Source: a virus
DNA length: 64,000 nt
Reading direction: 5' to 3' (one strand)
IMG/VR virus record: IMGVR_UViG_3300042319_001462
Location: 1-64,000 of that record
A program made the translations under genes and the position numbers. The notes beneath the pieces are model-generated. The model made no database searches, was not told the DNA's origin, and saw nothing but the letters and a program-made list of their open reading frames with translations. This document shows, in pieces, positions 2,034-49,300 of this stretch (its first letter is position 1; each line of letters begins with the position of its first letter).

Positions 2034-2122
2034 GGAGATGCGGCTACGATGGTGGAGTGGCCCCGGACTGTAAATCCGGTACTTAAGAAACGCAATAGGT
2101 TCGAATCCTATCATCTCCACCA
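2034..2122 (+). tRNA. tRNA-Tyr(GTA)
   Basis: Class II tRNA of 89 nt with acceptor ggagatg/catctcc, anticodon arm cggactGTAaatccg, a long variable arm, T-loop ttcgaat, A discriminator and CCA. It starts 4 nt after tRNA-Glu. Confidence 0.95.
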
Positions 2123-2345
2123 GAACGTTCCGGGTGTCTCCGGATAGTGTGACCCACACGATGAGAAGTACTGTGACAAGTACGGGTGGTAGTCTTCGAA
2201 CCCAAAGGCCGCTAGCAATGCGATAACGGTCCCTGTCGGGAAGCGGGTGGAAGGTACGTGTGATGAAAAACTAATTGGTGAGTGAAAACTTGCTGACCAA
2301 ATTTCTGATGTACTACAATTACCGCCGGGGGATGCAGAGCAATAT
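2123..2345 (+). ncRNA. Structured spacer RNA between tRNA-Tyr and tRNA-Cys
   Basis: No gene is supported in this 223 nt gap. Hairpins with perfect stems are gtact/agtac (2168-2183), ccgct/agcgg (2209-2246) with an inner tccc/ggga, and ttggt/accaa (2275-2300) with an inner agt-gaaa-act. I cannot assign a family. Confidence 0.4.
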
Positions 2346-5517: not shown

Positions 5518-5595
5518 GGGGGTATAGTGTTAACGGTTTAGCACAGCAGACTTTTAATCTGCCAGGTCAGGGTTCGAATCCCTGTGCCCCTACCA
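5518..5595 (+). tRNA. tRNA-Lys(TTT)
   Basis: Acceptor gggggta/tgcccct, anticodon arm gcagactTTTaatctgc, T-loop ttcgaat, A discriminator and CCA. The CCA is the start of the spacer helix that follows. Confidence 0.95.
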
Positions 5596-5696
5596 TATAA
5601 AAACACATTAACCAGTATCGTAGCAGTACTGCTGGTGCTACGGGATTTAGTGGGTTCGATCCCCACAGCCAGGTTCGTTAGTGTGTTTCTATATGG
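5593..5696 (+). ncRNA. Spacer RNA with long closing helix and a T-arm-like hairpin
   Basis: Bases 5593-5612 pair with 5677-5696 with one mismatch and one G-U pair, again using the CCA of the upstream tRNA and the GG of the downstream tRNA. The arms share AAACACA and TGTGTTTCTATA with the element at 2961. Inside are a 7 bp stem cgtagca/tgctacg (5620-5642) and a perfect T-arm mimic gtggg-ttcgatc-cccac (5650-5666). A closed stem carrying tRNA-like arms resembles bacterial Y RNA; this is a comparison, not a match I could test. Confidence 0.65.
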
Positions 5697-5769
5697 TGAT
5701 ATGACGTAGATGGATGCGTACCGCCCTCATAAGGCGAGGAGAGTGGATCATTCCCACTTATCACTACCA
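5695..5769 (+). tRNA. tRNA-Met or tRNA-Ile2 (CAT), variant T-loop
   Basis: Acceptor ggtgata/tatcact, anticodon CAT, perfect T-stem agtgg/ccact around loop atcattc (A54, U58), A discriminator and CCA. The three G-C pairs of initiator tRNA are absent. Both Ile tRNAs in the window have GAT, so this could be the lysidine-type Ile2 that reads AUA. Confidence 0.88.
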
Positions 5770-9083: not shown

Positions 9084-9716
9084 ATGTCGACACTTAAAGT
9101 AGCTTTTTTAAATTTGCCTGCGCCGCCGACAGCGTTGGCAACCCAGTTGATCAACTGTTGCCAACAAATCCCCTTGTTTGAAGAACACAGGATCTGGGTC
9201 GACAATTTTCATCGCAACGAAATCCCTGTGGCTGCACACGAATACGGCACCAAAGACACTGTACTGTCTGCCGAAATACAAAATCAAATTAGAGCAGTTT
9301 ATCAGAAATTTTTTCCAAACACAGTTGTATCCGCAGTGGTTGGTAAAATTAAAAATGTATTGTCGGTTCCCAGTCAAAGTCCACCACATTGTGATCGTGC
9401 AAGATATGTTGCCATAAACTATTTGCTAGAGCTTGGCGGTCCGGATGTTCGCACAGTATTTTACAAAGAATCGCGACCCAATCCCGATCTTTCCAGTGCT
9501 GCCAACATCTACCACAAGGATGTGACTGTGGATTTTAAAACTGTGATTCCGTTACATCAATGGCATGCTTATGATGTGCAACACTATCACAGCGTGGAGA
9601 ATATCATAACTGAACGCTATTTGTTTTCTCTACTGCTTGATACCAACCCCACGTTTGCCGACTTTAGGCAACGTTATAAAAATTTAATAGATACCGACCA
9701 CTCCATACAGACATAA
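9084..9716 (+). CDS. 2-oxoglutarate/Fe(II) oxygenase-like protein
   Basis: A 210-residue protein. His102-Cys-Asp104 in PPHCDRARYVAINYLLELG fits the HxD iron-binding pair of the double-stranded beta-helix fold, and the QHYHSVENI segment near 168-175 supplies the distal His, with Arg in ITERY close by as a possible 2-oxoglutarate ligand. Such phage oxygenases hydroxylate proteins, sugars or nucleobases; the substrate here is unknown. It starts 20 nt after tRNA-Leu and lacks a strong ribosome site. Confidence 0.7.
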   Translation: MSTLKVAFLNLPAPPTALATQLINCCQQIPLFEEHRIWVDNFHRNEIPVAAHEYGTKDTVLSAEIQNQIRAVYQKFFPNTVVSAVVGKIKNVLSVPSQSPPHCDRARYVAINYLLELGGPDVRTVFYKESRPNPDLSSAANIYHKDVTVDFKTVIPLHQWHAYDVQHYHSVENIITERYLFSLLLDTNPTFADFRQRYKNLIDTDHSIQT

Positions 9717-9733
9717 CACACAAAGGAAATTGT

Positions 9734-10207
9734 ATGCCAACTATAGATATAAACCAAGTCAAGGATTATATTGCCCAACAAGGCCCAAACACACGTATCT
9801 ACCTAGGAGCAGACTCGGAGCGCCATCGTATCAATGGAATATGGTGGGGTGTTTACACTGTGTGCATTGTAGTACATATCGACGGATGCCACGGTTGCAA
9901 AATCTTTGGAGAAATCACTCGTGAACGTGACTACGACCAACGAGCCAATCGTCCCAGCATGCGTTTGATGAATGAAGTATACAAGGTTAGCGAAATGTTT
10001 CAGAAACTGAGTACTGTACTTGAAGATCGACCAGTTGAAGTTCACTTGGATATTAACCCAGATGAAATGCACGGTAGTTCATGTGTGGTCAGTCAAGCCA
10101 TTGGCTACATTCGCGGCACCTGCAATGTTATTCCGTTGGTGAAACCGCATGCCTGGGCTGCCTCACATGCAGCCGACAAGTTCCCAAGCCTGCAACGAGT
10201 GGCTTGA
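9734..10207 (+). CDS. RNase H-fold protein of the YkuK/DUF458 type
   Basis: A 157-residue protein. IYLGADSERH at about 22-31 is the first strand with an acidic residue, followed by a long strand pair (TVCIVVHIDG) and a helix with Arg/Met-rich RPSMRLMNEVYKVSEMF, then VEVHLDINPD at about 100-110 with further acids, and a final SHAADKF helix. This order fits the predicted RNase H-like YkuK family found in Bacillus and in several phages. The activity of the family is not settled. The start has AAAGGA upstream. Confidence 0.7.
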   Translation: MPTIDINQVKDYIAQQGPNTRIYLGADSERHRINGIWWGVYTVCIVVHIDGCHGCKIFGEITRERDYDQRANRPSMRLMNEVYKVSEMFQKLSTVLEDRPVEVHLDINPDEMHGSSCVVSQAIGYIRGTCNVIPLVKPHAWAASHAADKFPSLQRVA

Positions 10208-11838: not shown

Positions 11839-12102
11839 ATGGCCAGATACACCAGTGAATCAGCAGTAAGTGCAGTGGGCAACCGGTACGACCTGGTGCT
11901 GATTGCATCCAGGCGTGCTAGAGAACTTTCTGTGGGGTATCAACCAACTGTTGTCAGCAATTCGGGCAATCTTGTCAAGGCTCTGGAAGAAATTGAACAA
12001 GGCAAAATTGGGCGTGAGCTTTTGCTAAAATCCACGCATGTGGAAGATCGAAGAACACGCAAAGAACGACACAGTGCCACACCTGGCCTTCCCGGTCGAT
12101 AA
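11839..12102 (+). CDS. rpoZ: RNA polymerase omega subunit homologue
   Basis: An 87-residue protein that matches bacterial omega over its core: MARYTSESAVSAVGNRYDLVLIASRRAREL against the NRFDLVLVAARRARQ block of omega, then NLVKALEEIEQGKIG against TVIALREIEEGLI. A basic tail (RRTRKERH) follows. Omega binds beta-prime and helps to assemble and tune RNA polymerase. A phage copy could replace host omega and change promoter choice. It has its own consensus promoter and AAAGGA upstream of the ATG. Confidence 0.85.
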   Translation: MARYTSESAVSAVGNRYDLVLIASRRARELSVGYQPTVVSNSGNLVKALEEIEQGKIGRELLLKSTHVEDRRTRKERHSATPGLPGR

Positions 12103-12133: not shown

Positions 12134-12310
12134 ATGAACGAACGAATTAAACAACTAATGAATCAAGCAGGCACTGATACTAGTGGCAAATGGATGGGCG
12201 TGGACCATGCTGAAAAGTTCGCCGAGTTGATTGTGAAGAAATGTGCTGAACTTTGCTTGGCAGACTACGATGCAGACATTATACTGGCACATTTCGGAGT
12301 TGAAGAATAA
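12134..12310 (+). CDS. Small helical phage protein (58 aa)
   Basis: A 58-residue frame with CGGAG 9 nt upstream. It begins MNERIKQLMNQAG and has a second helix HAEKFAELIVKKCAELCLADY. Short proteins with this MNERIxxL...EKFAELIV pattern are frequent in phages; no function is known to me. The tmRNA promoter lies in its last codons. Confidence 0.75.
   Translation: MNERIKQLMNQAGTDTSGKWMGVDHAEKFAELIVKKCAELCLADYDADIILAHFGVEE
12257..12285 (+). promoter_or_regulatory. Promoter for the permuted tmRNA
   Basis: TTGGCA at 12257-12262, 17 bp spacer, TATACT at 12280-12285, inside the end of the small gene upstream. Transcription would start near 12292, just before the tmRNA acceptor piece. Confidence 0.6.
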
Positions 12311-12395
12311 ATAAAAGTTAAGACTGTATGAAGTAGACAGAAAAGGATTCAAGACGCGGGGGCAGTGCCCGCCAGGTCCACCATAAGGAGATTAC

Positions 12396-12458
12396 GTGAG
12401 ATTACCATCATTGTTAGCAATATTAATTTTCATAGTAATAGTAGCAATCTTTTTATGA
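12396..12458 (+). CDS. Possible membrane micropeptide inside the tmRNA intervening segment
   Basis: A 20-codon frame with GTG start, preceded at 5 nt by TAAGGAG, a strong ribosome site. The product is one hydrophobic segment (MRLPSLLAIL then IFIVIVAIFL) with a single Arg at the N terminus, like a one-helix membrane peptide or toxin. It lies wholly between the acceptor CCA (12383) and the first base of the coding piece (12460). It may be real or a chance frame in a segment removed from the mature RNA. Confidence 0.45.
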   Translation: MRLPSLLAILIFIVIVAIFL

Positions 12459-12567
12459 TGGGCCTGACACAGGATCGATTGGGTCAAGAGTATTGAAATG
12501 GACAGTCCGGCAATGTAGAAGCCGTAGGATTGGGGTAACTCGGTCGAAGAAGCAAAACAAAGTAAAC

Positions 12568-12600
12568 GCAAACGACTCACAGTTCGCATTAGCTGCCTAA
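12568..12600 (+). other. tmRNA tag reading frame, ANDSQFALAA
   Basis: GCA resume codon followed by AAC GAC TCA CAG TTC GCA TTA GCT GCC and TAA. Together with the Ala on the tmRNA the tag is AANDSQFALAA, which ends in the LAA signal recognised by ClpXP. The bases before it (gtaaac) match the conserved context before the resume codon. Confidence 0.92.
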
Positions 12601-12643
12601 ACTCAGCTTAGGGTAAGACATACCTCGTAACAGAAACTCTAGA

Positions 12644-12668
12644 AGCCCACTTCGGTGGGCTTTTTCTT
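12644..12668 (+). terminator. Intrinsic terminator after the tmRNA
   Basis: Stem agcccac/gtgggct (12644-12661) with a TTCG tetraloop, followed by a run of T. Confidence 0.9.
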
Positions 12669-29705: not shown

Positions 29706-30780
29706 GTGTGCGTCCTTGTTCAATAATGGCCACTTGTGATGCCGTAAAATTGCTGTCACTCCAGTGATAATCGTATGTTGCCACAGCATCGCTGGTACGA
29801 ATACTGTATACATCCAAATATTTATAGAGTTGTTGCCACACAGACAAATAGTCCTGGGTTCCAAAACTACTGTGCAAATCAATCTGCGCCACTTGTGGAT
29901 GTCCAATGGTCAGAGCTGGATCTTCCGGATCAAATCCATTATCTCGTAGCCATGATCTAAATTCTGCCAACTTGCGCACTTGCCAATCACGTCCAGCAGG
30001 GTTCACACCCCATTCAATATCAAAATCTCCAGCAGCTTCAGTCTGACTGCGCAGGGTGCTGGTTGTTAATTCGTCCACACTGCGACCTTCATCATTAAAC
30101 ACTTCCCAATGATGTTTGCCCACTGCTTTGTTGACCCCAACAAACACCCCGCCCTGAGCACGATTAATGGTATCAACCCCAAACAACTCATAGTCGTGTT
30201 GATCTAGCACAAACCTCGGTGCATGCAGCCAGCACATGAGTTGACTGGGACGTTGCCATTCTGGCGCTGTGTGTAGTTTTCTATTGCTGAGTACCCAGGA
30301 TTCAAATTCATGACACAGCAAATTCAGCTGTCGTATGTGCCAGCGAGTGGTGCCGTTGGCCGCAGTGTACAACTGGCTCATTTGGCCACTGACCCCTTGA
30401 AGGTCTTCAAAGTATCTGTGCAACATGTTCATGCGTTGCTGGTTGACCATACCCCCAGGGGTGTGTTCGTCAAATGGTCCGGGAATCAAACAGTCACTAA
30501 GTGAAAAGTGATCATGTATTGTGTATCCCAGATCAGCTGAATTTATTGCCTGGATGCTGGTGTTTATTTGGTCTAGTATGTACGCACCGTTGCGCTGGCT
30601 TTGTGCAAATCCCAGAAAACAGTAATTCTTTTCTAGATGATAGTTGTTCTTTAGCAATTGATTCAGTGCGCCAAGCCATTTGCGTGACAATGATGAATCC
30701 ATTACGTCAATGTGTAATGGTAATAAATTGCCTGTGCGTATATCACGCAGGGTCATTTGAATTTTATCAAGCAATTTCAT
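29692..30780 (-). CDS. Unknown phage protein, paralogue of the gene at 177-1064
   Basis: A 362-residue protein of unknown function, related to the protein at 177-1064 across most of its length. Conserved points are SRKWLGALNQLL, the ILDQINTSIQAINS helix, GVFVGVNKAVGKHHWEVF, FDIEWGVNP and FRSWLRDNGFDPEDP. Many Asp, His and Trp residues suggest an enzyme or a binding protein. It overlaps the radical SAM gene upstream by 14 nt and so belongs to the cluster operon. It could be a partner or substrate-binding component. Confidence 0.75.
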   Translation of the reverse strand: MKLLDKIQMTLRDIRTGNLLPLHIDVMDSSLSRKWLGALNQLLKNNYHLEKNYCFLGFAQSQRNGAYILDQINTSIQAINSADLGYTIHDHFSLSDCLIPGPFDEHTPGGMVNQQRMNMLHRYFEDLQGVSGQMSQLYTAANGTTRWHIRQLNLLCHEFESWVLSNRKLHTAPEWQRPSQLMCWLHAPRFVLDQHDYELFGVDTINRAQGGVFVGVNKAVGKHHWEVFNDEGRSVDELTTSTLRSQTEAAGDFDIEWGVNPAGRDWQVRKLAEFRSWLRDNGFDPEDPALTIGHPQVAQIDLHSSFGTQDYLSVWQQLYKYLDVYSIRTSDAVATYDYHWSDSNFTASQVAIIEQGRTHELD

Positions 30781-32059
30781 CCCACCATTTCTTTATCTTG
30801 GGTCTTGCACTCAGTATGTCTGACATTGATGTCTTTGCTGTGCGAATGTTTTCTAATTGTAACACACGAGCTTTGCCTTTTGCAAGCTCTTTCTGATAGG
30901 TATCCGGCCATTGTTCTTCAAACGTTGGGCGTGTTTTTAACTGTGCCAGCACATCGCGCATGGCGGGCTCTGTACAGTTTGGAATCAATTCATCAATCCA
31001 GTCTTCCAATAGCGATCTTGGCAATGCCAGTGGACTCATGATAATATCTGGTCCAAAGCTGAATATGACCTTGGCCAACAAGTCCACATTGTATTCCTGT
31101 GCCAACTGCTGTATGTTCTCAACTTCAAACATGCCCGGCAGCGTGAGTGTGAAATCTAATCGCATTTGTCTGCGGTGACGTTGGTGTGATAATCCTGCTT
31201 CAAAGTTGTGTCTAAACTGCTGGTAGTCAAGCCCTGTTCTAATGTATTCACCGATTGCTCCAGTGCCGTCAAGGCTCGCGCAAATTTGCCAATCTCGTAC
31301 ATGATCCAAAATATCACTGTAAAGATTACACCCCCTATAATTAACACGGCTAAGATTGGTATTGTATCTAGCATATACTTGCCCTCCATCCCCTAATTCA
31401 ATTATGCGTTGCATATAACGCCAGTGCTGTTCGTACATGAGTGGTTCGCCGCCCACCCAGTATATTTCCTCCACACTGTGCTGTTCTACTGCTGTGGAGA
31501 ATTCTGCTTCGATTTGCTGGTCTTGAAATTGAGATATTTGTTCACGTATTTCCGGCAATTGCCAATTGTTTTTAGAGTTGGTCCAGTCAACCATGTTGTG
31601 TGTTTTTTGCTCGGCTTCCCAACTGCTGGATAACATGTCACCACACATTCTACACTTGAAATTGCACAAGTTCGAAAATCTATAGTCCCACGACACTGGC
31701 CGCATGGTTGTAGATCCTGATTGGTCTGTTGATTCATATACTTGATCTAGTTTGTGTTGGAACAAATGCCAAAAGTAATCTCGGTACACACTGGTATTCA
31801 GCAGTTTGTCATTGCATACTTCACACTCGGGCAAGGATTCCCCGGCCAGCATGCGTTGGCGCACACTGCGCATGTGGTCACCGTTCCAGTGTTGTTCCAG
31901 TGTTATTGGTATGTATTGCCCAGAACCTGCCGCAGTGTCAATATACTGACGAAAGTTTTGCGCAGGTTCTCTAGACGCACAGCACAGCCGCCGTTCGGTT
32001 TGCGGACTCAGGTATGTGTGAGTCCACGGGGCCAGGCAAAGACTAGATGTTTTTGACAT
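30767..32059 (-). CDS. Twitch/SPASM-type radical SAM protein 1
   Basis: A 430-residue radical SAM enzyme. The N terminal segment APWTHTYLSPQTERRLCCAS and CEVCN form the Cys-rich twitch-like part; the radical SAM motif CNFKCRMC is at Cys132, Cys136 and Cys139, followed by SSSWEAEQ and the YWVGGEPLMYEQHW motif. It is the last of five related genes in one operon read leftwards. Twitch-domain radical SAM proteins bind an auxiliary Fe-S cluster and often act on peptides or carbohydrates. The substrate is unknown. Confidence 0.87.
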   Translation of the reverse strand: MSKTSSLCLAPWTHTYLSPQTERRLCCASREPAQNFRQYIDTAAGSGQYIPITLEQHWNGDHMRSVRQRMLAGESLPECEVCNDKLLNTSVYRDYFWHLFQHKLDQVYESTDQSGSTTMRPVSWDYRFSNLCNFKCRMCGDMLSSSWEAEQKTHNMVDWTNSKNNWQLPEIREQISQFQDQQIEAEFSTAVEQHSVEEIYWVGGEPLMYEQHWRYMQRIIELGDGGQVYARYNTNLSRVNYRGCNLYSDILDHVRDWQICASLDGTGAIGEYIRTGLDYQQFRHNFEAGLSHQRHRRQMRLDFTLTLPGMFEVENIQQLAQEYNVDLLAKVIFSFGPDIIMSPLALPRSLLEDWIDELIPNCTEPAMRDVLAQLKTRPTFEEQWPDTYQKELAKGKARVLQLENIRTAKTSMSDILSARPKIKKWWDEIA

Positions 32060-33251
32060 AATTCAGCAATTGCGACAATTTGGGTATGGCCCATTTTAAA
32101 TCAGTGTCACGACGTTGATCCAATTGGCGTATTTCTGCGCAGATTCTCTCACCCGAAGTGCTGGTTCCTTGATTCATAAAATCAATGATTCCATCAAAGT
32201 CAGCACGATATTCTGTACTGGCTTGTTGTAGGTACTGTGTGATTTCTAGCTTGGCATGTGCAGGCAAAGCAGCCACACTAAAATACCAAGCATCATGCAT
32301 GATATTCCAGTACACAAAGTCAAAGTCCTGTAGGCTGATCCACAATGCAGTGTCTTCAAGATAGCACACATTAAAGATATTCACAGTACTACAGCATTGC
32401 AACTGTAGGTTGGGCATTTGAGTCCTTAACGCCCGAAAACGATCAAGATTATCTACTACCTTGGGCCAACTGGCGTTGGTGCGTTGATATTCAAATCTTG
32501 ACCCTACATCGTCGATGCTGATGGCAATTTCCACAGTTTTAAAATGTTTCCAAATTGACGGTGCTTGATCTGGGAATTGTGTTCCATTTGTGTTGTAATG
32601 TATTTCCACGTTGCCAGCAATGCCACGATCCACCATGCCTTGCAACATGTCAAAATGTTCCTGAATCATAAATGGCTCGCCACCGGTGAATTCAATATAT
32701 TTGATCTGACTCAATATTGAATCAATTTCCTGCCAAAAATTCTTGTTGTCCCTAGGCCAAGCCCCGGCACGTAGCATCTGATAATGAAATGACTGCTTTT
32801 GTTCCTCACGTGGCAAAAAGCTCAGTTCTTCTGTGGCAAATTGACTGCTACTCCACGATCCACATATACGGCATTTTAAATTGCAAATGTTGCCTAGTTT
32901 TAAATCCAAGAACATCAGGGGCTTGGCATGTGCTGTCCAGTCTGTATCAATGCCCATGTGTTTGAGTCTGTCCAGGGTGTGCATGCGTTTGCTGGTGCGG
33001 CCAGCATCTTCCTCGTTCCAGCACTTGCGGCATGTTTTGGGCTGTTGCCCCTGAAGGAATTGTTCACGCAGAGATTGCATTGATTTGGAATTTTGCACAG
33101 AGGCAAAGTCAGCAGTTAACAATGAGAACTTTTGACCAGCATCATCCACCAGCTCATCATCAGCTAGACAGCAAGGACGCACAGTTCCTATGGGACTGGC
33201 TTCCAGACTGACCCAGGGCAATACACAAAACTTCTCATGAGGCAGGTTCAT
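32043..33251 (-). CDS. Twitch/SPASM-type radical SAM protein 2
   Basis: A 402-residue relative of the other four. FCVLPWVSLEASPIGTVRPCC (8-28) and CRKCWNEEDAG (74-84) give the auxiliary Cys set; the core CNLKCRIC is Cys123, Cys127 and Cys130; IEFTGGEPFMIQEHF follows. The C terminus has RDTDLKWAIPKLSQLL, a version of the R-P-E-L-W end shared by this group. It overlaps genes on both sides. Confidence 0.87.
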   Translation of the reverse strand: MNLPHEKFCVLPWVSLEASPIGTVRPCCLADDELVDDAGQKFSLLTADFASVQNSKSMQSLREQFLQGQQPKTCRKCWNEEDAGRTSKRMHTLDRLKHMGIDTDWTAHAKPLMFLDLKLGNICNLKCRICGSWSSSQFATEELSFLPREEQKQSFHYQMLRAGAWPRDNKNFWQEIDSILSQIKYIEFTGGEPFMIQEHFDMLQGMVDRGIAGNVEIHYNTNGTQFPDQAPSIWKHFKTVEIAISIDDVGSRFEYQRTNASWPKVVDNLDRFRALRTQMPNLQLQCCSTVNIFNVCYLEDTALWISLQDFDFVYWNIMHDAWYFSVAALPAHAKLEITQYLQQASTEYRADFDGIIDFMNQGTSTSGERICAEIRQLDQRRDTDLKWAIPKLSQLLNYVKNI

Positions 33252-34507
33252 TTTAGGGCCTTTAATTCTGGGATCACATCTAGAATGTTTTCTTTTCTAA
33301 TGGTATCTAGCTCATGTGTTTTGCGCCAGAATGTATCAATTAAATGAGTATTATCTGTTGCGTTCATAAACGTAATAGCTGACTCAAATCCTTGGGTGGC
33401 ACGACCCAGGCGATCCTGGGGACGAAGCCATTCTAGATGCTGTGTCCACTTTGCGTGTAACTGTGCTTTGTATTTCAACGGAGCAATATCAATCCTGTAG
33501 TGCTGTGGATCTTGTAGTATGTTTACATTGAGATCTTGTGCGCGAATCAATCCTTGGTCTACCCAAGCACGATGAAACTCTGACAGATGCATTGCATTCA
33601 TGATGCTTAGTGTAGGCGAGATGTAAAAATCCACGTCGGGACATGTGGCCAACATATCTATACGGTTCTGGCGCACCACACCCCAGTCTGTGCCTTTACG
33701 TATGTATTCACCGCGTGAGCCCATGTCGTCCAGGCTGGCACCCACTGCAACTGATTTAAATTGCTTCCAGTATTCAAATACACTGCGACCTTTAAGGTCT
33801 GTATGTGTGAAGTTTGTGTTGTATATCAGTCTGACATCTGTGCGCCCACGTCGAACCAGTTCTTCCAGGATATTGTAGTGTTCTTCCATTAATAATGGTT
33901 CACCCCCGGCAAAGTATATTTGTTCCACATAGTCTAAATGGGGAATCAATTGAGTCCACATGTCTGTTTCTGTGCGGCCTGCGTAGTTTAATACTTTGTT
34001 TTGTGCTTTCCAATCTCCGCCAGCTAACTTGGCTTGATCTTGATACCAGCTTGAACTAAAGATATGGCCACAGCTACGGCAACTTAGGTTACACAAGTTG
34101 CTGAAACGAATGTCCCAGTAAGTCATTTCAAACGGGTTGTCTTCCAACTTCTTGATCTGATGCCCGTGATGTTTATTGGCGCTCTTACGGCCACTAAAGA
34201 ACCCCGATTCTTCTTGCTCGTAGCAACGTGTGCAGGCAGCATTGGGCGTTTCGCTTAACATATCTGCACGTAGCTTTTGCATGGGTTTGCCGCGCCAGAT
34301 TTCCTCAAGTGTGTTGGTTCTACAGTTGCCTACCACACCCGGCTTCATTTCAGCATGACAGCAAGGATATGCTTCGCCTGTGGGGTATGCGTGTAAGTGT
34401 ATCCAAGGATAGATACAAAACGTTTTTGAATCTTTTAATAAAAATTCCTCACGCTCGGTCAGCTCTGTGGCATGTACTAGATCTGTTGAGTTGTAATTGT
34501 ATGTCAT
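33248..34507 (-). CDS. Twitch/SPASM-type radical SAM protein 3
   Basis: A 419-residue relative. FCIYPWIHLHAYPTGEAYPCC (30-50), CTRCYEQEESG (92-102) and core CNLSCRSC at Cys139, Cys143 and Cys146, then SSSWYQDQ and IYFAGGEPLLMEEH. The end IRKENILDVIPELKAL matches the group. It overlaps both neighbours at ATGA-type junctions. Confidence 0.87.
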   Translation of the reverse strand: MTYNYNSTDLVHATELTEREEFLLKDSKTFCIYPWIHLHAYPTGEAYPCCHAEMKPGVVGNCRTNTLEEIWRGKPMQKLRADMLSETPNAACTRCYEQEESGFFSGRKSANKHHGHQIKKLEDNPFEMTYWDIRFSNLCNLSCRSCGHIFSSSWYQDQAKLAGGDWKAQNKVLNYAGRTETDMWTQLIPHLDYVEQIYFAGGEPLLMEEHYNILEELVRRGRTDVRLIYNTNFTHTDLKGRSVFEYWKQFKSVAVGASLDDMGSRGEYIRKGTDWGVVRQNRIDMLATCPDVDFYISPTLSIMNAMHLSEFHRAWVDQGLIRAQDLNVNILQDPQHYRIDIAPLKYKAQLHAKWTQHLEWLRPQDRLGRATQGFESAITFMNATDNTHLIDTFWRKTHELDTIRKENILDVIPELKALK

Positions 34508-35838
34508 TATAGTGAATTATACCACTCGGTCAGTTCCGGAAATGCATCCGCAAAGTTTTTACCCCTGCGGTTGTCGTACTGTGTGTAGAACTGTTTGAAG
34601 TCTTGCTGTAGCACTGATTGTTCAGCGGCTCCGGCATGTGGTGTTTTGACCACATCTAAATAGTCTACTAGGCGTTGTAATTGATTCCACTCAAATTCCT
34701 GGAACAAGCTTGATCCTTTATTATCAACCATGACCTGGACCAATCGCTGTTGAAGTTCTTGGCGTAAATGATCGGGTAACACTAACGGGCTTTGGAAACT
34801 AGGGAAACGTAGAATATTCAAGCTGACATTAATGGAATCATTTCCGTATTCGCGCTTCCAATTCAGCACACACTCTAAAAATGAATCCAGTGTAGTCAAG
34901 CACAGTGCATTAATGGTACACATAACGTGTAGGCCACGGAACTTGCCCGAGCTTAACAAACGTTCTACATTGTTTGCCCAGTCGTCAAATACCAGGCCAT
35001 CACGAATGTATTCTGCTTGTAAACTCATTGCTTCGTTTGAAGTGTATAGGTCTACTTCCACACCATCAATAGCAGTTAACAGGCGATCAACATCAACATC
35101 GGTGCCTAGGTTACTGTTAATGGCCAAGCGTGTGGTACTCTTGCCTTTGTTGGTTTTAAACCACTCAATTAGTCGCCATGTTTCGGCACTCATCAAGGGT
35201 TCACCACCGGTGATCCTTAGCTCTTGTAGTGTTCTGTGGAGGTCTGACTCCCACCATTGGTGGAACGCTTCCACATAAGGATTAACCTCACCGAATTTAT
35301 ACAATTGGCTGCTATCATGAGTATGAGTAAAGTGATTGCGCCCGTCTGATACAAGTCCTGTGTATGCCCCGTTTCGTTTAATGTCGTTAACCCATGTAGT
35401 GCTGAAAGCAGGATTACAGTAACTACAAGCAAACTGGCAAGTGCGATCAAAAGCAATTTCCAATGTTTTGAGATTAAAGTCTTCACGGGCTGGAGTTGCG
35501 TAAGCATGTTTCAAATCCTTTATTTCGTAAATTTTACTTTTGTACACACGGTCGCTGATGTTGTCACGACCAATGTCCTCTACCTTCCAGCAATATTCAC
35601 AGCCGCTGGGACGTTCTCCCCGTTGCATTTGCTCACGTTCCATTTTCTTTTTGGTAGTGTTGTGCAGTGCGCTGGGGTTTAACTTGATCTCTTCAACGTC
35701 AATTGCATGCGGCAGTGGGTGATGACAACTGGTAGTTTGCCCACTTCCTAGCCATATAGTGGCGTTGTACCATTTGGCAGCACAAAAACTGTTAGACAGT
35801 TTGTCCAGTACTGTGTGTTTAAAATCTAAATCAGTCAT
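34507..35838 (-). CDS. Twitch/SPASM-type radical SAM protein 4
   Basis: A 443-residue relative, closest to the C-terminal part of the 638-residue protein: FCAAKWYNATIWLGSGQTTSCHHPLPHAI against MCLAKWKQVSLHLATGLNNSCYHPPLHEI. CEYCWKVED is at 80-88, the core CQFACSYC at Cys134, Cys138 and Cys141, and LRITGGEPLMSAETW follows. The ATG at 35838 overlaps the upstream stop (TAATGA); the frame runs 21 codons further upstream inside the previous gene. Confidence 0.87.
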   Translation of the reverse strand: MTDLDFKHTVLDKLSNSFCAAKWYNATIWLGSGQTTSCHHPLPHAIDVEEIKLNPSALHNTTKKKMEREQMQRGERPSGCEYCWKVEDIGRDNISDRVYKSKIYEIKDLKHAYATPAREDFNLKTLEIAFDRTCQFACSYCNPAFSTTWVNDIKRNGAYTGLVSDGRNHFTHTHDSSQLYKFGEVNPYVEAFHQWWESDLHRTLQELRITGGEPLMSAETWRLIEWFKTNKGKSTTRLAINSNLGTDVDVDRLLTAIDGVEVDLYTSNEAMSLQAEYIRDGLVFDDWANNVERLLSSGKFRGLHVMCTINALCLTTLDSFLECVLNWKREYGNDSINVSLNILRFPSFQSPLVLPDHLRQELQQRLVQVMVDNKGSSLFQEFEWNQLQRLVDYLDVVKTPHAGAAEQSVLQQDFKQFYTQYDNRRGKNFADAFPELTEWYNSL

Positions 35839-36973
35839 TAAATTTGTTTTCTTTAAGAAATTGACGAAAACGCTCGGGGAATTCATCACGCACAGTGTCA
35901 CGCAGTTCTAACATGTGCTGTTGATTGTATTTACATACGCTGGAGCAGGCCGCAAGGAATTCATCTAGATTCTGAGCACACAAATCTTCAACTACCTGTG
36001 TAATACGTGTGAGTCGATCCTGGCTGTTGTCAATCAAATCAAAACTTTCGTCAATCACATGCCCAAATGTCTTGAAGCCTAGGTTACGCATGTCGCGATA
36101 GTATCCGCGATTGGCTGCTGCTATCCAAGGATGTCCCATGGCCACAGGCTTCCATATCTTTTCAGTTCTAAATGAATACGGATATTCAAACACTGTTTCT
36201 GATACTAGACTAAAGTAGGTGTCGATATAGGGATCGGCCTTGAGATATATTTCTCCCCATTCTTGATTAAACAACCCAAATTTGATGTAGCCGTGTCCTA
36301 GGTTGCGATCTACATTGACACTGTATCGATCAACTTCATAATGAGCCGGTAAAAGATGCGGATCTCGATGTGTGAGCATTAGATCTTGACCATTAAATGG
36401 CACAGACAAATTAATTTTGCCACCAAGCCCGCCCTCCAAGCAACTCCATAAACTCTGATCTAGCAGGCCCATGATATTGAGTTTTTCTATTAGAAACTTA
36501 CGATGCCCACGAATACGCCCATTTAGAAACAAAAACTTATAGGGCTTGTTAGTGGTTGAGTACAGCGCCTGTGCTTGTGTAATAGCAGCGATGTTTTCTT
36601 CATAGTCGTGTATCTTGGGCAAGAAACTATCATACAGTAAACAGGGCCAGGTTTCATCCATGTCCCCACCACCAACCAATAACACACGTCCGGATTGTAT
36701 TAGATCCGCGCAGTTGTGCACATGCTCGCAGTGTGCTTTTAATGTCTCGCTGCCTTCGGCTGGATTGCTCAACACAACACTGATTGTGTTGGAGGTCACT
36801 AACTCTCTGATTCGATCTTTATTTAAATTATATTGTGCGCGGCCAATTACATAAATGGCGCCTGGTACTATGTTGTGCTTGTTGAAATTGTAGAAATGAT
36901 CATCCAGCCAGGGCTTTAATTGATCATAAACTTCGCACATTGTATCAAGTATAAGTTTACGATTATCTAGCAT
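35831..36973 (-). CDS. GT-B-like protein 3 (TEKxFKPI family)
   Basis: A 380-residue paralogue of the proteins at 24633 and 25739. RTEKIWKPVAMGHPWIAAA near 267-285, then GFKTFGHVIDESFD, match the shared block; YKFLFLNGRIRGHRKFLIEKL (about 140-160) is the second shared region. It lies between two radical SAM genes, overlapping both, which links this family to the radical SAM chemistry. I use the ATG at 36973; a GTG three codons earlier is possible. Confidence 0.65.
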   Translation of the reverse strand: MLDNRKLILDTMCEVYDQLKPWLDDHFYNFNKHNIVPGAIYVIGRAQYNLNKDRIRELVTSNTISVVLSNPAEGSETLKAHCEHVHNCADLIQSGRVLLVGGGDMDETWPCLLYDSFLPKIHDYEENIAAITQAQALYSTTNKPYKFLFLNGRIRGHRKFLIEKLNIMGLLDQSLWSCLEGGLGGKINLSVPFNGQDLMLTHRDPHLLPAHYEVDRYSVNVDRNLGHGYIKFGLFNQEWGEIYLKADPYIDTYFSLVSETVFEYPYSFRTEKIWKPVAMGHPWIAAANRGYYRDMRNLGFKTFGHVIDESFDLIDNSQDRLTRITQVVEDLCAQNLDEFLAACSSVCKYNQQHMLELRDTVRDEFPERFRQFLKENKFND

Positions 36974-38879
36974 TGTATTCACATTCTGCCCACCAGGCTC
37001 GCATTTCGGGAAAGGTCTTTAAAAAATCTGTGTTGCGGCGGCGATCGTGTTCAGTAAAAAAACGATAAAAATCTGCTCGTGCCACATTGTGATCAGCAGT
37101 TTGGCCACTGCGCATCCAGGCAATGTCTCTGTCCAAACGTGCCACTTCGTAGTCCTTGAATCCATGATAAGGGTTGTCGGGTGTGGTCAAGTGTGTGCTC
37201 ATCCAATCTCTAATGTCCTCTAATTTTTGTGCATAAGATTCAGGCAAAATTTGCAAGCTTTGCCATGCAGGGTCGCGCAGTACAGGCGTATCAAACCACA
37301 CACGCTGATATGTGGTGCTGTGCTTGCGGCGTAGTTCTAGTATGCCTTCAAGCAGTTGTGGCAGACTACTCACAGAGAGATTGTTCATTGTGATAATAAA
37401 CGTCAGGCTGTTGTAACTGGGCACTTGAGTCAGGTATTGATCTACTCTACTCCAAACTAGATCAAAATCCATGCCATGACGCATGTACTCTGCTTGTGAG
37501 CCCCATCCGTCCAAGGAGACATATTGCATAAAGTGTTCTATGCGCCCGTCACAAATGTTTTGTACTGCTGTTAGATATTTGTCAAATAGCACTTGGTCTA
37601 CTGAAAAGTTACTTGTGACATTCAAGTGTAGTTGCTTTGACGGGTTTTGAATCACATAGTCAAACACTCTATAAGTGTTTTTGTCCATGAGCGGTTCGCC
37701 GCCGGTCATGCGAAAGTGCACCAGTTCAGGGTACAGAGTAGGCCACCACTGCCAAAACGCTTCAACGTAGGGATTGTTTTCTCTCACAGGAATTGGAGTT
37801 CGAGTTCCAACAAAGTGAGACGGTGAGTTATGCTCGGTACTGGTGGGGTAACCTCCCTGTCTAGCAATCTCATCAGCCCAACTAGAACTAAACTGAGGAG
37901 AGCAGTAACTACAGCGTAGATTGCAAGCATGATTGAAATTGACTTCTACATAACTAGGCACAATATCATCGTCCCAGTTTGCGCTTACAATTTTTCCAAA
38001 ATCTTTTTCAGCCCAAGATTCTCCGCTGCGGTAATGCCGATCACTCAGCTTGCCGTTATCCTCCATGGTCCAGCAATAACTGCATTCTGCAGGGCGCACA
38101 CCATCAAGCATTAATTTACGCTGTTGTTTTTTGTGTTCAGTATTGTGCAATCCGCTTGGGCCTCGCTTGATGTCTTCGAGACGAATTTCATGCAATGGTG
38201 GATGGTAACAACTGTTATTGAGGCCTGTGGCCAGGTGCAGACTAACCTGTTTCCACTTGGCTAGACACATGCTGGGACTTACTGTGTCCAGTCGTTGTTT
38301 CATGGTTTCGGCATCGTCAAGAAACTTGCTTTTGAATCCATCCACAATTTTATCCCCAGACACCTGAGTCAGATCATGCGGTTGATATTCTGCAATGGCC
38401 TGTTGATATTCCACACTGTTGATTGTTGCCAATTCCATTCGCATCATTTGAGCAAAGTCAGACTGATCCAGGGAGATGTTGACAATGATGTCAGCGCCGG
38501 TTGTGTCCAGTGGATATTCAGTGTAATATTTTTTATGGTACGATACATGTGCCTTGGCATGCTCTAATTTGCCGGGCATGTCTTTGTCACGATACTGATC
38601 CTCTAGATACCACTCTCGTTGTAGACTGCTACCCAAATCAGACTTGATGATTGTGATTTTCTGTCCCGGAAACAACCGACTCAACAACGGAGCATTTACA
38701 CAGTGTGTGAGTATCAGGTCCTGATCTGGCAAGACTGAGTCTGCTGTTAGGTAACGGTATTCAAAACGTTGATTTTTAAGCAAATGATCATAGGTGGTGT
38801 GACTGGTGAATTCCGTTGTTCCTGTTAGATATTGGTAGTATCTGTTTCCACCTGCGCCGGGGTAAAATGCTATGATCAT
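36963..38879 (-). CDS. Fusion: unknown N-terminal domain plus twitch radical SAM protein 5
   Basis: A 638-residue protein. Residues 1-200 form an extra domain not present in the other four: MIIAFYPGAGGNRYYQYLTG, a glycine-rich turn like that of sulfotransferases or kinases, then ILTHCVNAPLLSRLF and QREWYLEDQ. I cannot name it. From about 204 the protein follows the group: MCLAKWKQVSLHLATGLNNSC, CSYCWTMED, core CNLRCSYC at Cys319, Cys323 and Cys326, and FRMTGGEPLMDKNTY. The end NTDFLKTFPEMRAWW matches. It overlaps the genes on both sides. Confidence 0.85.
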   Translation of the reverse strand: MIIAFYPGAGGNRYYQYLTGTTEFTSHTTYDHLLKNQRFEYRYLTADSVLPDQDLILTHCVNAPLLSRLFPGQKITIIKSDLGSSLQREWYLEDQYRDKDMPGKLEHAKAHVSYHKKYYTEYPLDTTGADIIVNISLDQSDFAQMMRMELATINSVEYQQAIAEYQPHDLTQVSGDKIVDGFKSKFLDDAETMKQRLDTVSPSMCLAKWKQVSLHLATGLNNSCYHPPLHEIRLEDIKRGPSGLHNTEHKKQQRKLMLDGVRPAECSYCWTMEDNGKLSDRHYRSGESWAEKDFGKIVSANWDDDIVPSYVEVNFNHACNLRCSYCSPQFSSSWADEIARQGGYPTSTEHNSPSHFVGTRTPIPVRENNPYVEAFWQWWPTLYPELVHFRMTGGEPLMDKNTYRVFDYVIQNPSKQLHLNVTSNFSVDQVLFDKYLTAVQNICDGRIEHFMQYVSLDGWGSQAEYMRHGMDFDLVWSRVDQYLTQVPSYNSLTFIITMNNLSVSSLPQLLEGILELRRKHSTTYQRVWFDTPVLRDPAWQSLQILPESYAQKLEDIRDWMSTHLTTPDNPYHGFKDYEVARLDRDIAWMRSGQTADHNVARADFYRFFTEHDRRRNTDFLKTFPEMRAWWAECEYNAR

Positions 38880-46334: not shown

Positions 46335-49300
46335 TTATTCTCCGCGCAAAAACCTTGCGGCATAGGTATCGGTATCTTGTAATGGAACACCATCGCTAGC
46401 TGTGCCTGCTCCCAATTGATACCAGCTTTTCCCACGTAGTAAACTGATAGACACTTGATATCCAGATTCAGGTGCTTGATCAAATTCCACAGTAACTGGG
46501 TTAGAATTGATAATGCTGTATCCCGAGGACTGTAGTGTGCCACCAATTCGTACTTCAACTGCTTCTAGGATTTCAGTAGAATCCAATCCAGATACCGATA
46601 TTGATTCAGTTTCAAACACTGTGGTTGTTCCATCGCCTAGGAAGTTTTCATTAACTATATAGTTTTGGTATTCAGATATTAGTAAATTACCACTACCAAT
46701 GTCATATACTGCGGCTCCAACTGCATGTGGTGCGGCTGCGGTTCCGGCAGTACCACGGCGCAGACCACTAACTGTGTTGTTTGCAGTATCGCGGTTGCGA
46801 TAGGTAATGCGTTCGCCATCAATTGTGATATACCCAAAAATACCCAGGGGCAGATTTGGTTCAGGCAAGGCTGTCACATCACTGACATAAATTATGTCAT
46901 CACTTGCACTCAAAGCCACTGCAACTTGGGTTGTCGTGGCAGGTGTGATTCGATAGGTGCGCTGTAGTCCTCGCATGTCTTGGAATATGCGGAATGCCAT
47001 GGCTTCTGGTACCACTTGATTTGTCATGCTTGTAATTACCACCACTTGAGATGCGCCAATTACTGGATTATTCAAAATAACCAACGACCCATCAACCACA
47101 AAGTCACGTCCCGAAGACAAGTATCGTCCATCAAGAGTAACAATCAAACGTTCAGGTTTGAGTATTAGACGTCCAGTGTCAAATTGATTGTTCTGAATCA
47201 ATGTACCACTTTGATAGTCATACGAGCCTGGCTCGCCGGTGGTATTGCCAGTGTCGTACAGGGTATCGCTGTATCCTTCAGTTATCACTAGCCCTGATTC
47301 ATTCGGGCCCACAAATACTTGTGTTAGCAATTGTTGTTGGGTAGTGTCGTTCCATGAAGTAACCGAAATAACATCTCCTACTACAGGAATCAAACCCTGA
47401 CTTGGTTGGAATGTGATCTGATTGCCCACTACCCAATACTGTGCTTTGGTTCTAACAGATATCAATATATTTGATAAGTTGGCTGGCGGTGTAGCAAATT
47501 CAATTGCTCGTTGTGTGCTATCGTCAGCTGGATCAACTGTAAAGTCAACTCCCAGTACTTGTGCAACGTTGTTGACATACACTGCAACATCGTTGTCAGC
47601 CACAAGATTCAAGCTATACCCACCCGTAGTTGGTAGATCATAATAAACAGTGACTCCATCTCCAACATAGTCTATCCCTTCTGCAGGACGAGCTCTTGTG
47701 CCATTTTTGTTTACTACCACATTAACTGGGTTGGTTCCCATCATGCTGTTGGTCAGTGTGTAAGTCAGCGCACCAGTGCTGTAGATGTACTGAGTCACTG
47801 GCAAGCTCCATGTACCGCCAACCTCAGCACCAAGAGCTGTTATTGTCACACTGTCTGTTGAAGTAAATGCACTGCTAAATGTAATCAATGTGTTTACGGT
47901 GGAGTCTGCACTTGATGTAAAGTTAGATACTTGAACACCATTCACAAACACCACTAAACTATCAATCAAACTATAGGTCATTGGGATTACCACTGTAGAC
48001 CCAATATCGGATCCCAAGTATGTTTGTGTAAACAACTGATTACCGCCGCCCAGGGAATACGCCGCAATAGTGAGCACATCACCAAGGCTGGCATTTGCAC
48101 TGATAATTGTAACTGTAGAATTTACCCAATTAACTGTGTAATCAGTGCCAAGTGCTAGATCAACCCCAGTGGTTAGATTGTATACATTTAGTGCAATTGC
48201 ATTGTTTAACAATCCAACAAAACTCAAACTGCTGCCATCAAAAATATAGTTACGATCTTTTTCTGGCCAGCCGTGTCCATCACCTATCCAGTCAGCCCCC
48301 GGTGTGGTATACACACGCATGTCAAGTGTATCATATGTGATACCTGGCACCAACTCTTCTGGAGCATGACTCTCGTATGTGTCAACAAATGCACCACCGT
48401 CAACATTGATGTCCGTAGGGAGTGTTCCGAGGTACGGATCCAAGAACGAACTGCTGTACGCTGCATCTAAAATAGCTGGATCGTAAGTTGGGATACCCTC
48501 AGCATCATACGAGATATTGTCAAACGGGTTGATGTCAAAGTTTCCAACATCAAATCCAGTATTTTGGTCAAACCCTGGACCCATTACTTGCACACCTGGG
48601 TAATCAATGCCACTGATCAATAATGCTAGATCTAGGCCAGGCTGATCAGGAGTGGGTGCATAATATCCCATGGTGCGATCAACACCAGTTAGATCACCAG
48701 CGGGCACCACTGTCCAATCTGTTGGGTCAAATGTTGTTGTCTGTACTTGTGCGTTTGCTGACCATACTCGATCTGCATAACGTACCATGGTACCCTCTGT
48801 GTATATCACCCCAGATTGCCACGGAACCACAGTTGGAGTATACTGATAACGATCATATCGCATGGTTGTTGTTAAACTACGCACACGAGAGTTGCCCATG
48901 TAAGCCACTGCACTTGCACCTGAACCACCGCCACCTGTTATGGTAATTATTGCAGTGGTGGAATATCCCTCGCCTGCAGATACAACATTAATTGCCACCA
49001 CTTGGCCTGCGCTGTTGATTTGTGCAGTCATTGTGGCAGGTGTAATACAATCACCAGTAACAGTCACTGTGGGTTGAGTAATATATCCAGTGCCGCCAGA
49101 CACTATCCCAACATTTTCAATACTCAATAGATAGTTCTGATACCATTGATTCCAGGGGAATGTAGTCCACACAGGATCAGTGCTTGGGCGGCTGCTGGTT
49201 GTACTCAAGTTGCCAGTATTGTCTAGTACCGGACTAACAAACAGTTGCTCGGCGGCATCCCAGTATGCTGGTAAATCAAAATCAGTCACGCTACCAAGAT

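Follow-up and report, generated by a model that had tools for sequence, protein, structure and literature searches.

The locus at positions 12,322 to 12,600 of the window (the whole stretch of viral DNA analysed here, 64,000 nucleotides) raises the question of what a phage does with the part of a permuted tmRNA gene that is removed from its product. According to the available part of PMC11915505, tmRNA occurs in nearly all bacteria, and the spacer is the sequence that is absent from the mature RNA. The preliminary description of this DNA recognized a phage-encoded, circularly permuted two-piece tmRNA and passed over the spacer between its halves, which is the most unusual part of the locus.

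The tmRNA itself was readily recovered by covariance models. The Rfam model RF04321 (tmRNA_permuted) covers 12322-12600 on the plus strand with 106.1 bits against a gathering cut-off of 47 (E 1.1e-19 in the window), and the alignment takes in the full model (positions 1-213 of 213). RF01849 (alpha_tmRNA) also exceeds its cut-off (62 bits vs 50), while RF01850 (beta_tmRNA) stays below its own (79.4 bits vs 84; E 4.7e-24 in a 1001-base stretch). A run of ARAGORN on the window did not report a two-piece tmRNA at 12322-12600. With the source being a virus record, the phage-encoded two-piece tmRNA of the preliminary description is upheld, as are its 7-bp acceptor stem with the G3-U70 pair, the encoded CCA, and the tag with its stop. 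The parts of the gene and its flanking signals are as follows.

12257-12285, plus strand: candidate sigma-70-like promoter, TTGGCA-17-TATACT, from a consensus match alone (3 found vs 1.3 expected in shuffles).
12322-12383, plus strand: acceptor half (3' piece), from the RF04321 and RF01849 alignments, with a long-helix strand, T-arm, CAGGTCC, discriminator A, and encoded CCA.
12356-12372, plus strand: T-arm, read from the sequence, with loop GGCAGTG at 12361-12367.
12373-12379, plus strand: acceptor 3' strand CAGGTCC, read from the sequence, followed by A (12380) and CCA (12381-12383).
12460-12600, plus strand: coding half (5' piece), its extent being the reach of RF04321, with the acceptor 5' strand, D-loop AGGATCGA, long-helix strand, resume codon, and tag frame.
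12460-12466, plus strand: acceptor 5' strand GGGCCTG, forming the 7-bp stem with CAGGTCC at 12373-12379 and including G3-U70.
12568-12600, plus strand: tag frame GCA..GCC, encoding ANDSQFALAA (12568-12597), with stop TAA (12598-12600).
12641-12664, plus strand: terminator-like hairpin with a TTCG loop, from a hairpin scan (2 found vs 0.9 expected).

Some details of the earlier reading had to be changed. The acceptor half does precede the coding half, but according to RF04321 its domain begins near 12322 and not at 12354. The terminator said to frame the unit corresponds to the terminator-like hairpin above; the promoter match is weak, since three were found where 1.3 were expected, and by eye it sits within an upstream 58-aa frame (12134-12310). 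The T-loop GGCAGTG, presented as a departure from the usual sequence, is the standard alphaproteobacterial form (the Rfam alpha consensus is GGCgGUA): the pattern occurs in at least 118 bacterial stretches, and the 80 record titles among those listed are largely alphaproteobacterial. The earlier suggestion that permuted tmRNAs are not known from phages does not hold, as phage cases are in print in the accessible part of PMC9004378 and Rfam finds the tmRNA of phage Melnitz. A second, lower-scoring RF04321 match at 2095-2336 (plus strand; 21.7 bits, below the cut-off) overlaps a tRNA-Tyr and is probably spurious. Two tRNAs were found by Rfam at 5518-5592 and 5695-5766 on the plus strand (61.4 and 41.5 bits), both unlisted by ARAGORN.

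Other genes of the window were noted in passing. Just upstream of the tmRNA, an 87-aa ORF (11839-12102, plus strand) matches RNA_pol_Rpb6 (PF01192, E 3.5e-15) and represents a phage RNA polymerase omega/Rpb6-like protein. A row of minus-strand ORFs at 30767-38879 mostly matches radical SAM families, and two of them (32043-33251 and 33248-34507) carry a SPASM domain N-terminal to the radical SAM match. A 4714-aa ORF (46335-60479, minus strand) has four stretches matching phrog_10938 ('virion structural protein'), and near residue 3800 it shows head-closure and tail-lysozyme-like matches.

The RF01849 score, the T-loop GGCAGTG, and the D-loop AGGATCGA all place the window tmRNA with the alphaproteobacterial subtype. 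The betaproteobacterial score is below its cut-off yet higher than the alphaproteobacterial one (79.4 vs 62), so the coding half is not plainly alphaproteobacterial. The window tmRNA is thus confirmed as a phage-encoded permuted tmRNA of alphaproteobacterial type in its tRNA-like part. Among the viral loci listed, the alpha T-loop is accompanied by the D-loop AGGATCGA in 158 and by GTTTCGA in 2, and the canonical T-loop by GTTTCGA in 12 and by AGGATCGA in 2, rarer combinations aside; the T-loop type thus tracks the D-loop type, as expected if both tmRNA pieces pack together. RF04321 scored above its cut-off in 10/10 loci of one viral set and in 9/10 of another, the tenth (L507) having entered through a homologue of its cargo. 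For the host, the 33-nt acceptor piece gave no exact match in the GTDB genome collection, and the coding half gave three weak, partial matches alone in 398 genomes of the phylum.

ANDSQFALAA is also the commonest tag among the matches listed, being found in 19/65 distinct coding halves of the viral CAGGTCC group. Its ALAA C-terminus is degron-like and would act as a degron. A role of the phage tmRNA in freeing ribosomes and feeding ClpXP, as put forward in the preliminary description, is plausible. No SmpB match was found within the 71,328-base virus record, of which the window is bases 1-64000; the tmRNA would therefore require host SmpB, or else a phage copy encoded beyond the record. The missing SmpB would also suit a tmRNA that is a remnant or decoy with no working two-piece product, leaving the nested gene (see below) as the only part that matters, and a phage tmRNA lacking a CDS has been described, in the part of PMC11915505 at hand, as inhibiting E. 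coli tmRNA. We regard a remnant or decoy as very improbable, given that the acceptor stem, G3-U70, CCA, the T/D-loop match, and the tag frame are all intact and that LAA-ending tags predominate in the viral loci (44/65 and 122/163 distinct coding halves among the matches listed; the script found no tag in 7 of 65 and 24 of 163).

The spacer between the halves contains a complete small reading frame with its own translation signal, and its ends can pair with each other.

12384-12459, plus strand: intervening segment (spacer) of 76 nt, lying between CCA and the 5' acceptor strand, and expected to be absent from the mature tmRNA.
12384-12393, plus strand: 5' arm of the closing stem, TAAGGAGATT, which pairs with 12446-12455.
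12385-12390, plus strand: Shine-Dalgarno (SD) sequence AAGGAG, read from the sequence, within the closing stem of the spacer.
12396-12458, plus strand: nested frame MRLPSLLAILIFIVIVAIFL, with GTG start and 20 codons; a single base separates its TGA stop from the 5' acceptor strand.
12446-12455, plus strand: 3' arm of the closing stem, AATCTTTTTA, which pairs with 12384-12393.

In this arrangement, the SD sequence stands close behind the CCA, five bases separate AAGGAG from the GTG start, and the frame of 20 codons runs to the end of the spacer (stop at -1). The encoded sequence MRLPSLLAILIFIVIVAIFL is very hydrophobic and would probably be a 20-residue membrane-spanning peptide. Our preferred reading, which we consider likely, is that the phage permuted tmRNA is processed, charged, and used for tagging, that its excised spacer serves as a dock for a small protein gene, and that the transcript acts as an mRNA first and as a tmRNA precursor afterwards.

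The window frame could also have arisen by chance in an A+T-rich stretch of an ordinary phage permuted tmRNA, with real nested genes possible in other phages. When the window spacer was shuffled 20,000 times with dinucleotides preserved, 225 shuffles contained any nested frame by the rule given below, and only 13 joined SD, start, and a stop at the boundary. When the body of the frame was shuffled with start and stop kept, 3976/20000 (20%) remained open, which favours chance, although 3 of these 3976 were as hydrophobic as the window frame. The GTG start also favours chance, as does the isolation of the frame: it is a singleton in family clustering, no diverged homologue was found, and the two matches obtained were a related contig with the same spacer and L161 with a different frame. 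Among the loci compared, the same spacer was otherwise found in those of contig IMGVR_UViG_3300042558_003617 alone. On the other hand, L104 and L164 have tmRNA halves near-identical to those of the window (100% in the acceptor part, 97% and 96% in the coding part) and carry, in the corresponding slot, frames of 64-69 codons that have relatives. Taken alone, the 20-codon frame is suggestive and not proven, and we hold chance to be a rather unlikely explanation of it.

Whether such frames are a property of phage tmRNAs was examined across viral and bacterial spacers. A nested frame was defined as one preceded by an SD sequence, with a start at most 32 nt from the CCA, at least 15 codons, and an end no more than 20 nt before the acceptor strand or later. 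The viral loci counted are samples among the matches listed. The first sample was collected with a 17-base T-arm pattern, which gave at least 120 loci, nearly all in an acceptor-half context, and all 120 were used; the second was collected with a pattern that did not require an SD sequence, and 80 loci among at least 120 were used. Loci were discarded if they lacked a full 7-bp partner or had a T-loop of another kind, leaving 97/120 and 75/80 viral loci and 106/118 bacterial ones. A further viral scan required AAGGA after the CCA, and its loci contribute to the family and stem sets but not to the SD-blind counts. As the contigs are not independent, they were dereplicated at 90% for frame counts and at 80% for stem pairing, and expected counts were taken from dinucleotide shuffles.

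Among the matches listed, nested frames were present in 13/55 distinct spacers of the first SD-blind viral sample (1.11 expected) and 14/66 of the second (1.92 expected), whereas bacteria had 1/91 (2.13 expected). Nested frames are therefore above chance in phages, where they reach 123 codons. The median spacer length among the matches listed is 93 and 97 nt in the two viral samples vs 30 nt in bacteria (91 distinct spacers). RF04321 is present in 359/385 genomes of Alphaproteobacteria, the matches listed spanning about 184-351 nt, and none of 34 additional alphaproteobacterial tmRNAs had a nested frame, including four chosen as among the longest matches listed (37 were read; L552 duplicates L541, and the genomes of L514 and L515 had been sampled before).

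The fixed rule is a strict one: it missed the window's own frame as well as the DUF2061 loci L067 and L082, which a slightly wider SD rule counts. In a looser tally asking for an SD sequence and a frame of 15 or more codons, 20/62 and 63/69 viral spacers among the matches listed qualified, the second sample having been chosen for AAGGA, and the frame ended within 12 nt of the spacer end in 11 of 20 and 23 of 63. Most phage spacers among the matches listed have no frame by the strict rule (42/55 and 52/66), a finding that suits chance in the window and from which it follows that cargo is dispensable for the tmRNA. The position of the stop alone proves little, because a terminal TGAT is also common in non-nested viral spacers (117/150 among the matches listed). 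In several viral loci (L182, L189, L190, L192, L218, and others), spacers of about 159 nt hold a short acidic frame (..GDSDEEPSSTR..) that ends mid-spacer and is not explained by the cargo model.

No match to the window locus was obtained with blastn against phage records, and the 53-nt acceptor piece found weak matches alone (best E 2e-3), from which five isolates were taken. SD-preceded spacer frames were absent from the permuted tmRNAs of XM05, CcrPW, Cp1R7A-A1, and EliS-L02, and the script detected no permuted tmRNA in MD18 (L492).

The nested frames have the look of genes. By the wider SD rule, and with the AAGGA scan included, 94 viral loci among the matches listed are nested, carrying 68 distinct sequences in 33 families, of which 20 are singletons. 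The dN/dS values were 0.23 (10 sequences), 0.19 (5), 0.13 (4), and 0.12, 0.15, and 0.22 (2 each); less clear values were 0.44 for three DUF2061-like sequences and 0.41 and 1.40 for two pairs with few changes. Two further families are near-identical, and two pooled families (8 and 4 members; dN/dS 0.42 and 0.72), which join partly unrelated frames, were kept out of the selection evidence. Differences peak at third codon positions (612/377/953, 34/43/100, 30/18/57, 10/7/33, 6/1/13, 9/7/20, and 20/10/29 for the first, second, and third positions), with the excess missing in three pairs that have 3-7 differences. Several cargo families are thus under purifying selection, and the window frame is a singleton for which no diverged relative was found.

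One 69-aa cargo is a DUF2061 protein (PF09834, E 3.5e-20), and nine other cargoes tested gave no Pfam match above the cut-off. A tblastn search with the DUF2061 cargo matched one phage record (42% identical), while three nested families searched in the same way matched none. The 122-aa cargo of L101 was modelled by AlphaFold with a mean pLDDT of 65, and its best Foldseek match was a GNAT domain (E 0.022); as no match reached 0.001, 'acetyltransferase-like' is a mere hint. Of 16 loci with relatives of this cargo, whose T-arms are partly of the alpha and partly of the canonical type, 12 are nested according to the script. Inspection by eye adds L504, which has one mismatch in the acceptor; in L508 and L509 the contig is cut and the frame extends into the coding half, while the relative in L507 lies outside any such nest. 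A family of 104-aa cargoes is nested in 4/4 loci found, and in some cargo families the frame extends 13-42 nt into the coding half.

The slot is not bound to one gene. L055 and L067 are identical in the compared tmRNA halves, and their flanks are 89-94% identical where aligned, but L055 carries a 72-aa frame and L067 the DUF2061 gene, with no similarity found between the spacers; together with L114, they are three sisters with three cargoes. A pair was taken as flank-alike if each of its two flanks aligned over 300 bp or more at 80% or higher; duplicate contigs were counted too. By the rules of the script, 205 viral pairs qualified, of which 49 have the same cargo, 5 have different cargo, and 28 combine a nested with a non-nested spacer; in the other pairs, the non-nested spacers are alike in 72 and unlike in 51. 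L089 and L068 also have similar flanks (86%) and different cargo, with an upstream match too short for this count. The reverse situation was found as well, with spacers of L104 and L120 97% identical and no blastn match in the compared flanks, spacers of L067 and L082 77% alike between flanks without a blastn match, and spacers of L090 and L110 93% alike with one 51-base match downstream. Sister phages therefore exchange cargo in the tmRNA spacer. The L120 contig (299,983 bases) combines a GOLLD RNA (9451-9914; 192.6 bits, with an internal tRNA match), a long tRNA array, and the tmRNA with a nested gene.

The ends of the spacers pair with each other. In the minimum-energy fold of the window tmRNA, TAAGGAGATT and AATCTTTTTA form a stem atop the acceptor stem with the SD sequence inside; this fold is modestly better than those of shuffles (z -1.84; 4/100 shuffles as good). 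Across loci, the two ends of a spacer form better pairing with each other than with ends swapped in from elsewhere in 47/47 nested, 97/98 non-nested viral, and 20/22 bacterial spacers, the latter two groups being restricted to spacers of at least 35 nt. The closing stem is a general feature, because it is also found in non-nested viral and bacterial spacers. In 38/47 nested spacers, many of which were chosen for AAGGA (favouring this result), 75% or more of the SD sequence is paired within the closing stem; in L383 (Melnitz), L388, L404, L425, L427, L433, L453, and L457 it is less than 75% paired, and one of the 47 has no SD motif in its first 15 nt.

From this arrangement we infer the processing, charging, tagging, cargo translation, and order of events as follows. 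The transcript would be cut into acceptor and coding pieces; once these had paired and received alanine, they would add ANDSQFALAA to stalled peptides. The spacer removed in processing would double as the docking site for a small protein gene, whose SD sequence lies close behind the CCA and whose stop lies at or near the spacer end. The spacer ends pair into a stem that closes the precursor, in many cases with the SD sequence in it; ribosomes would load before the 3' arm is transcribed, so that the transcript would probably act first as an mRNA; closure of the stem would then commit the RNA to tmRNA maturation.

The main mechanistic rival takes the nested frame for a regulatory leader, in which translation holds the precursor open and blocks RNase P, the tmRNA matures when ribosomes are scarce, and the peptide is irrelevant. 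The position of the SD sequence in the closing stem, both in the window fold and in most nested spacers, would agree with a leader, and so would the stop, often beside the 5' acceptor strand, and the frames that run into the coding half in some families. A leader has no need, however, for cargo of up to 123 codons, for purifying selection in several families, or for DUF2061. The stem is not there to regulate a frame, because non-nested spacers keep it too (97/98). That the proteins are conserved, diverse, and in part known speaks against a leader as the whole story, and we judge this explanation to be distinctly unlikely.

Returning to the spacer as a dock for small genes, a broader proposal can be made with some reserve, as we would put it at somewhat below even chances: the permuted tmRNA may be a mobile cargo carrier in phages, with a slot exchangeable among unrelated genes and a transcript used twice, as cargo mRNA and, after closure of the stem that hides the SD sequence, as two-piece tmRNA. 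Many of the cargo mRNAs, which cleavage at the 5' acceptor strand would leave with about one base past the stop, may then be substrates of their own tmRNA. If phages use the spacer as a gene slot, one transcript would join an mRNA with a ribosome-rescue RNA, raising the testable question of how its translation is kept apart from its processing. The spacer would then also be a hiding place for small phage genes, as in Melnitz, where no CDS is annotated there. Different genes between the same tmRNA halves in sister phages would also offer a reason, besides ribosome rescue, for phage tmRNAs to be kept.

The closest known system is the Methylophilales phage Melnitz, for which a two-piece tmRNA has been reported; the same paper gives 53/133 unique phage tmRNA structures as two-piece according to the suggestion of ARAGORN (PMC9004378, part of the text). 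Like the window, Melnitz has a permuted tmRNA (Rfam matches of 113.4 and 106.7 bits) with an alphaproteobacterial T-loop (GGCAGTA) and an SD-preceded spacer frame, which has 54 codons, no CDS in the record, and relatives in, e.g., L409 and L435; the accessible part of PMC9004378 makes no mention of it. Melnitz differs from the window in its cargo, in an SD sequence mostly outside the closing stem, and in a glutamine riboswitch match behind the tmRNA. In addition, a homologue (59% identity) of a 62-aa nested family is annotated in Melnitz as a free gene immediately upstream of the tmRNA. The positions noted in L383 (Melnitz) for this arrangement, a free gene with nested relatives beside a spacer with a different frame and no annotated CDS, are 1489-1689 and 1786-1927.

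Alphaproteobacterial ssrA (RF01849) shares with the window the permuted order, the GGC[AG]GT[AG] T-loop, the AGGATCGA D-loop, and paired spacer ends, while it differs from the phage loci in its short spacers (median 30 nt), with nested genes not above chance. No report of protein frames in tmRNA spacers was found in the open-access literature as far as it could be consulted, subscription papers and preprints being mostly outside the search; for spacers, the available part of PMC11915505 mentions a tRNA gene and a repeat and no protein frame. Group I introns with homing-endonuclease genes are known from tmRNA genes (36/883 intron forms, in the part of PMC11915505 consulted), and they resemble the window in placing a protein gene inside a tmRNA part that is removed from the mature RNA. 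In those tmRNAs, a T-loop intron carries a homing endonuclease as cargo, whereas the phage loci use the spacer slot for diverse cargo; no group I intron was found in the window tmRNA, its T-loop being uninterrupted at 12361-12367 and no intron family being among the Rfam matches at gathering score. A tRNA-Ala gene in the intervening sequence of a permuted tmRNA was termed a unique feature (PMC11915505, same part); it is likewise a gene in the spacer, but a single RNA gene, unlike the protein frames of many families in the phage loci. As an RNA kind, the permuted tmRNA is already known in phages, and the new part is the spacer as a cargo site.
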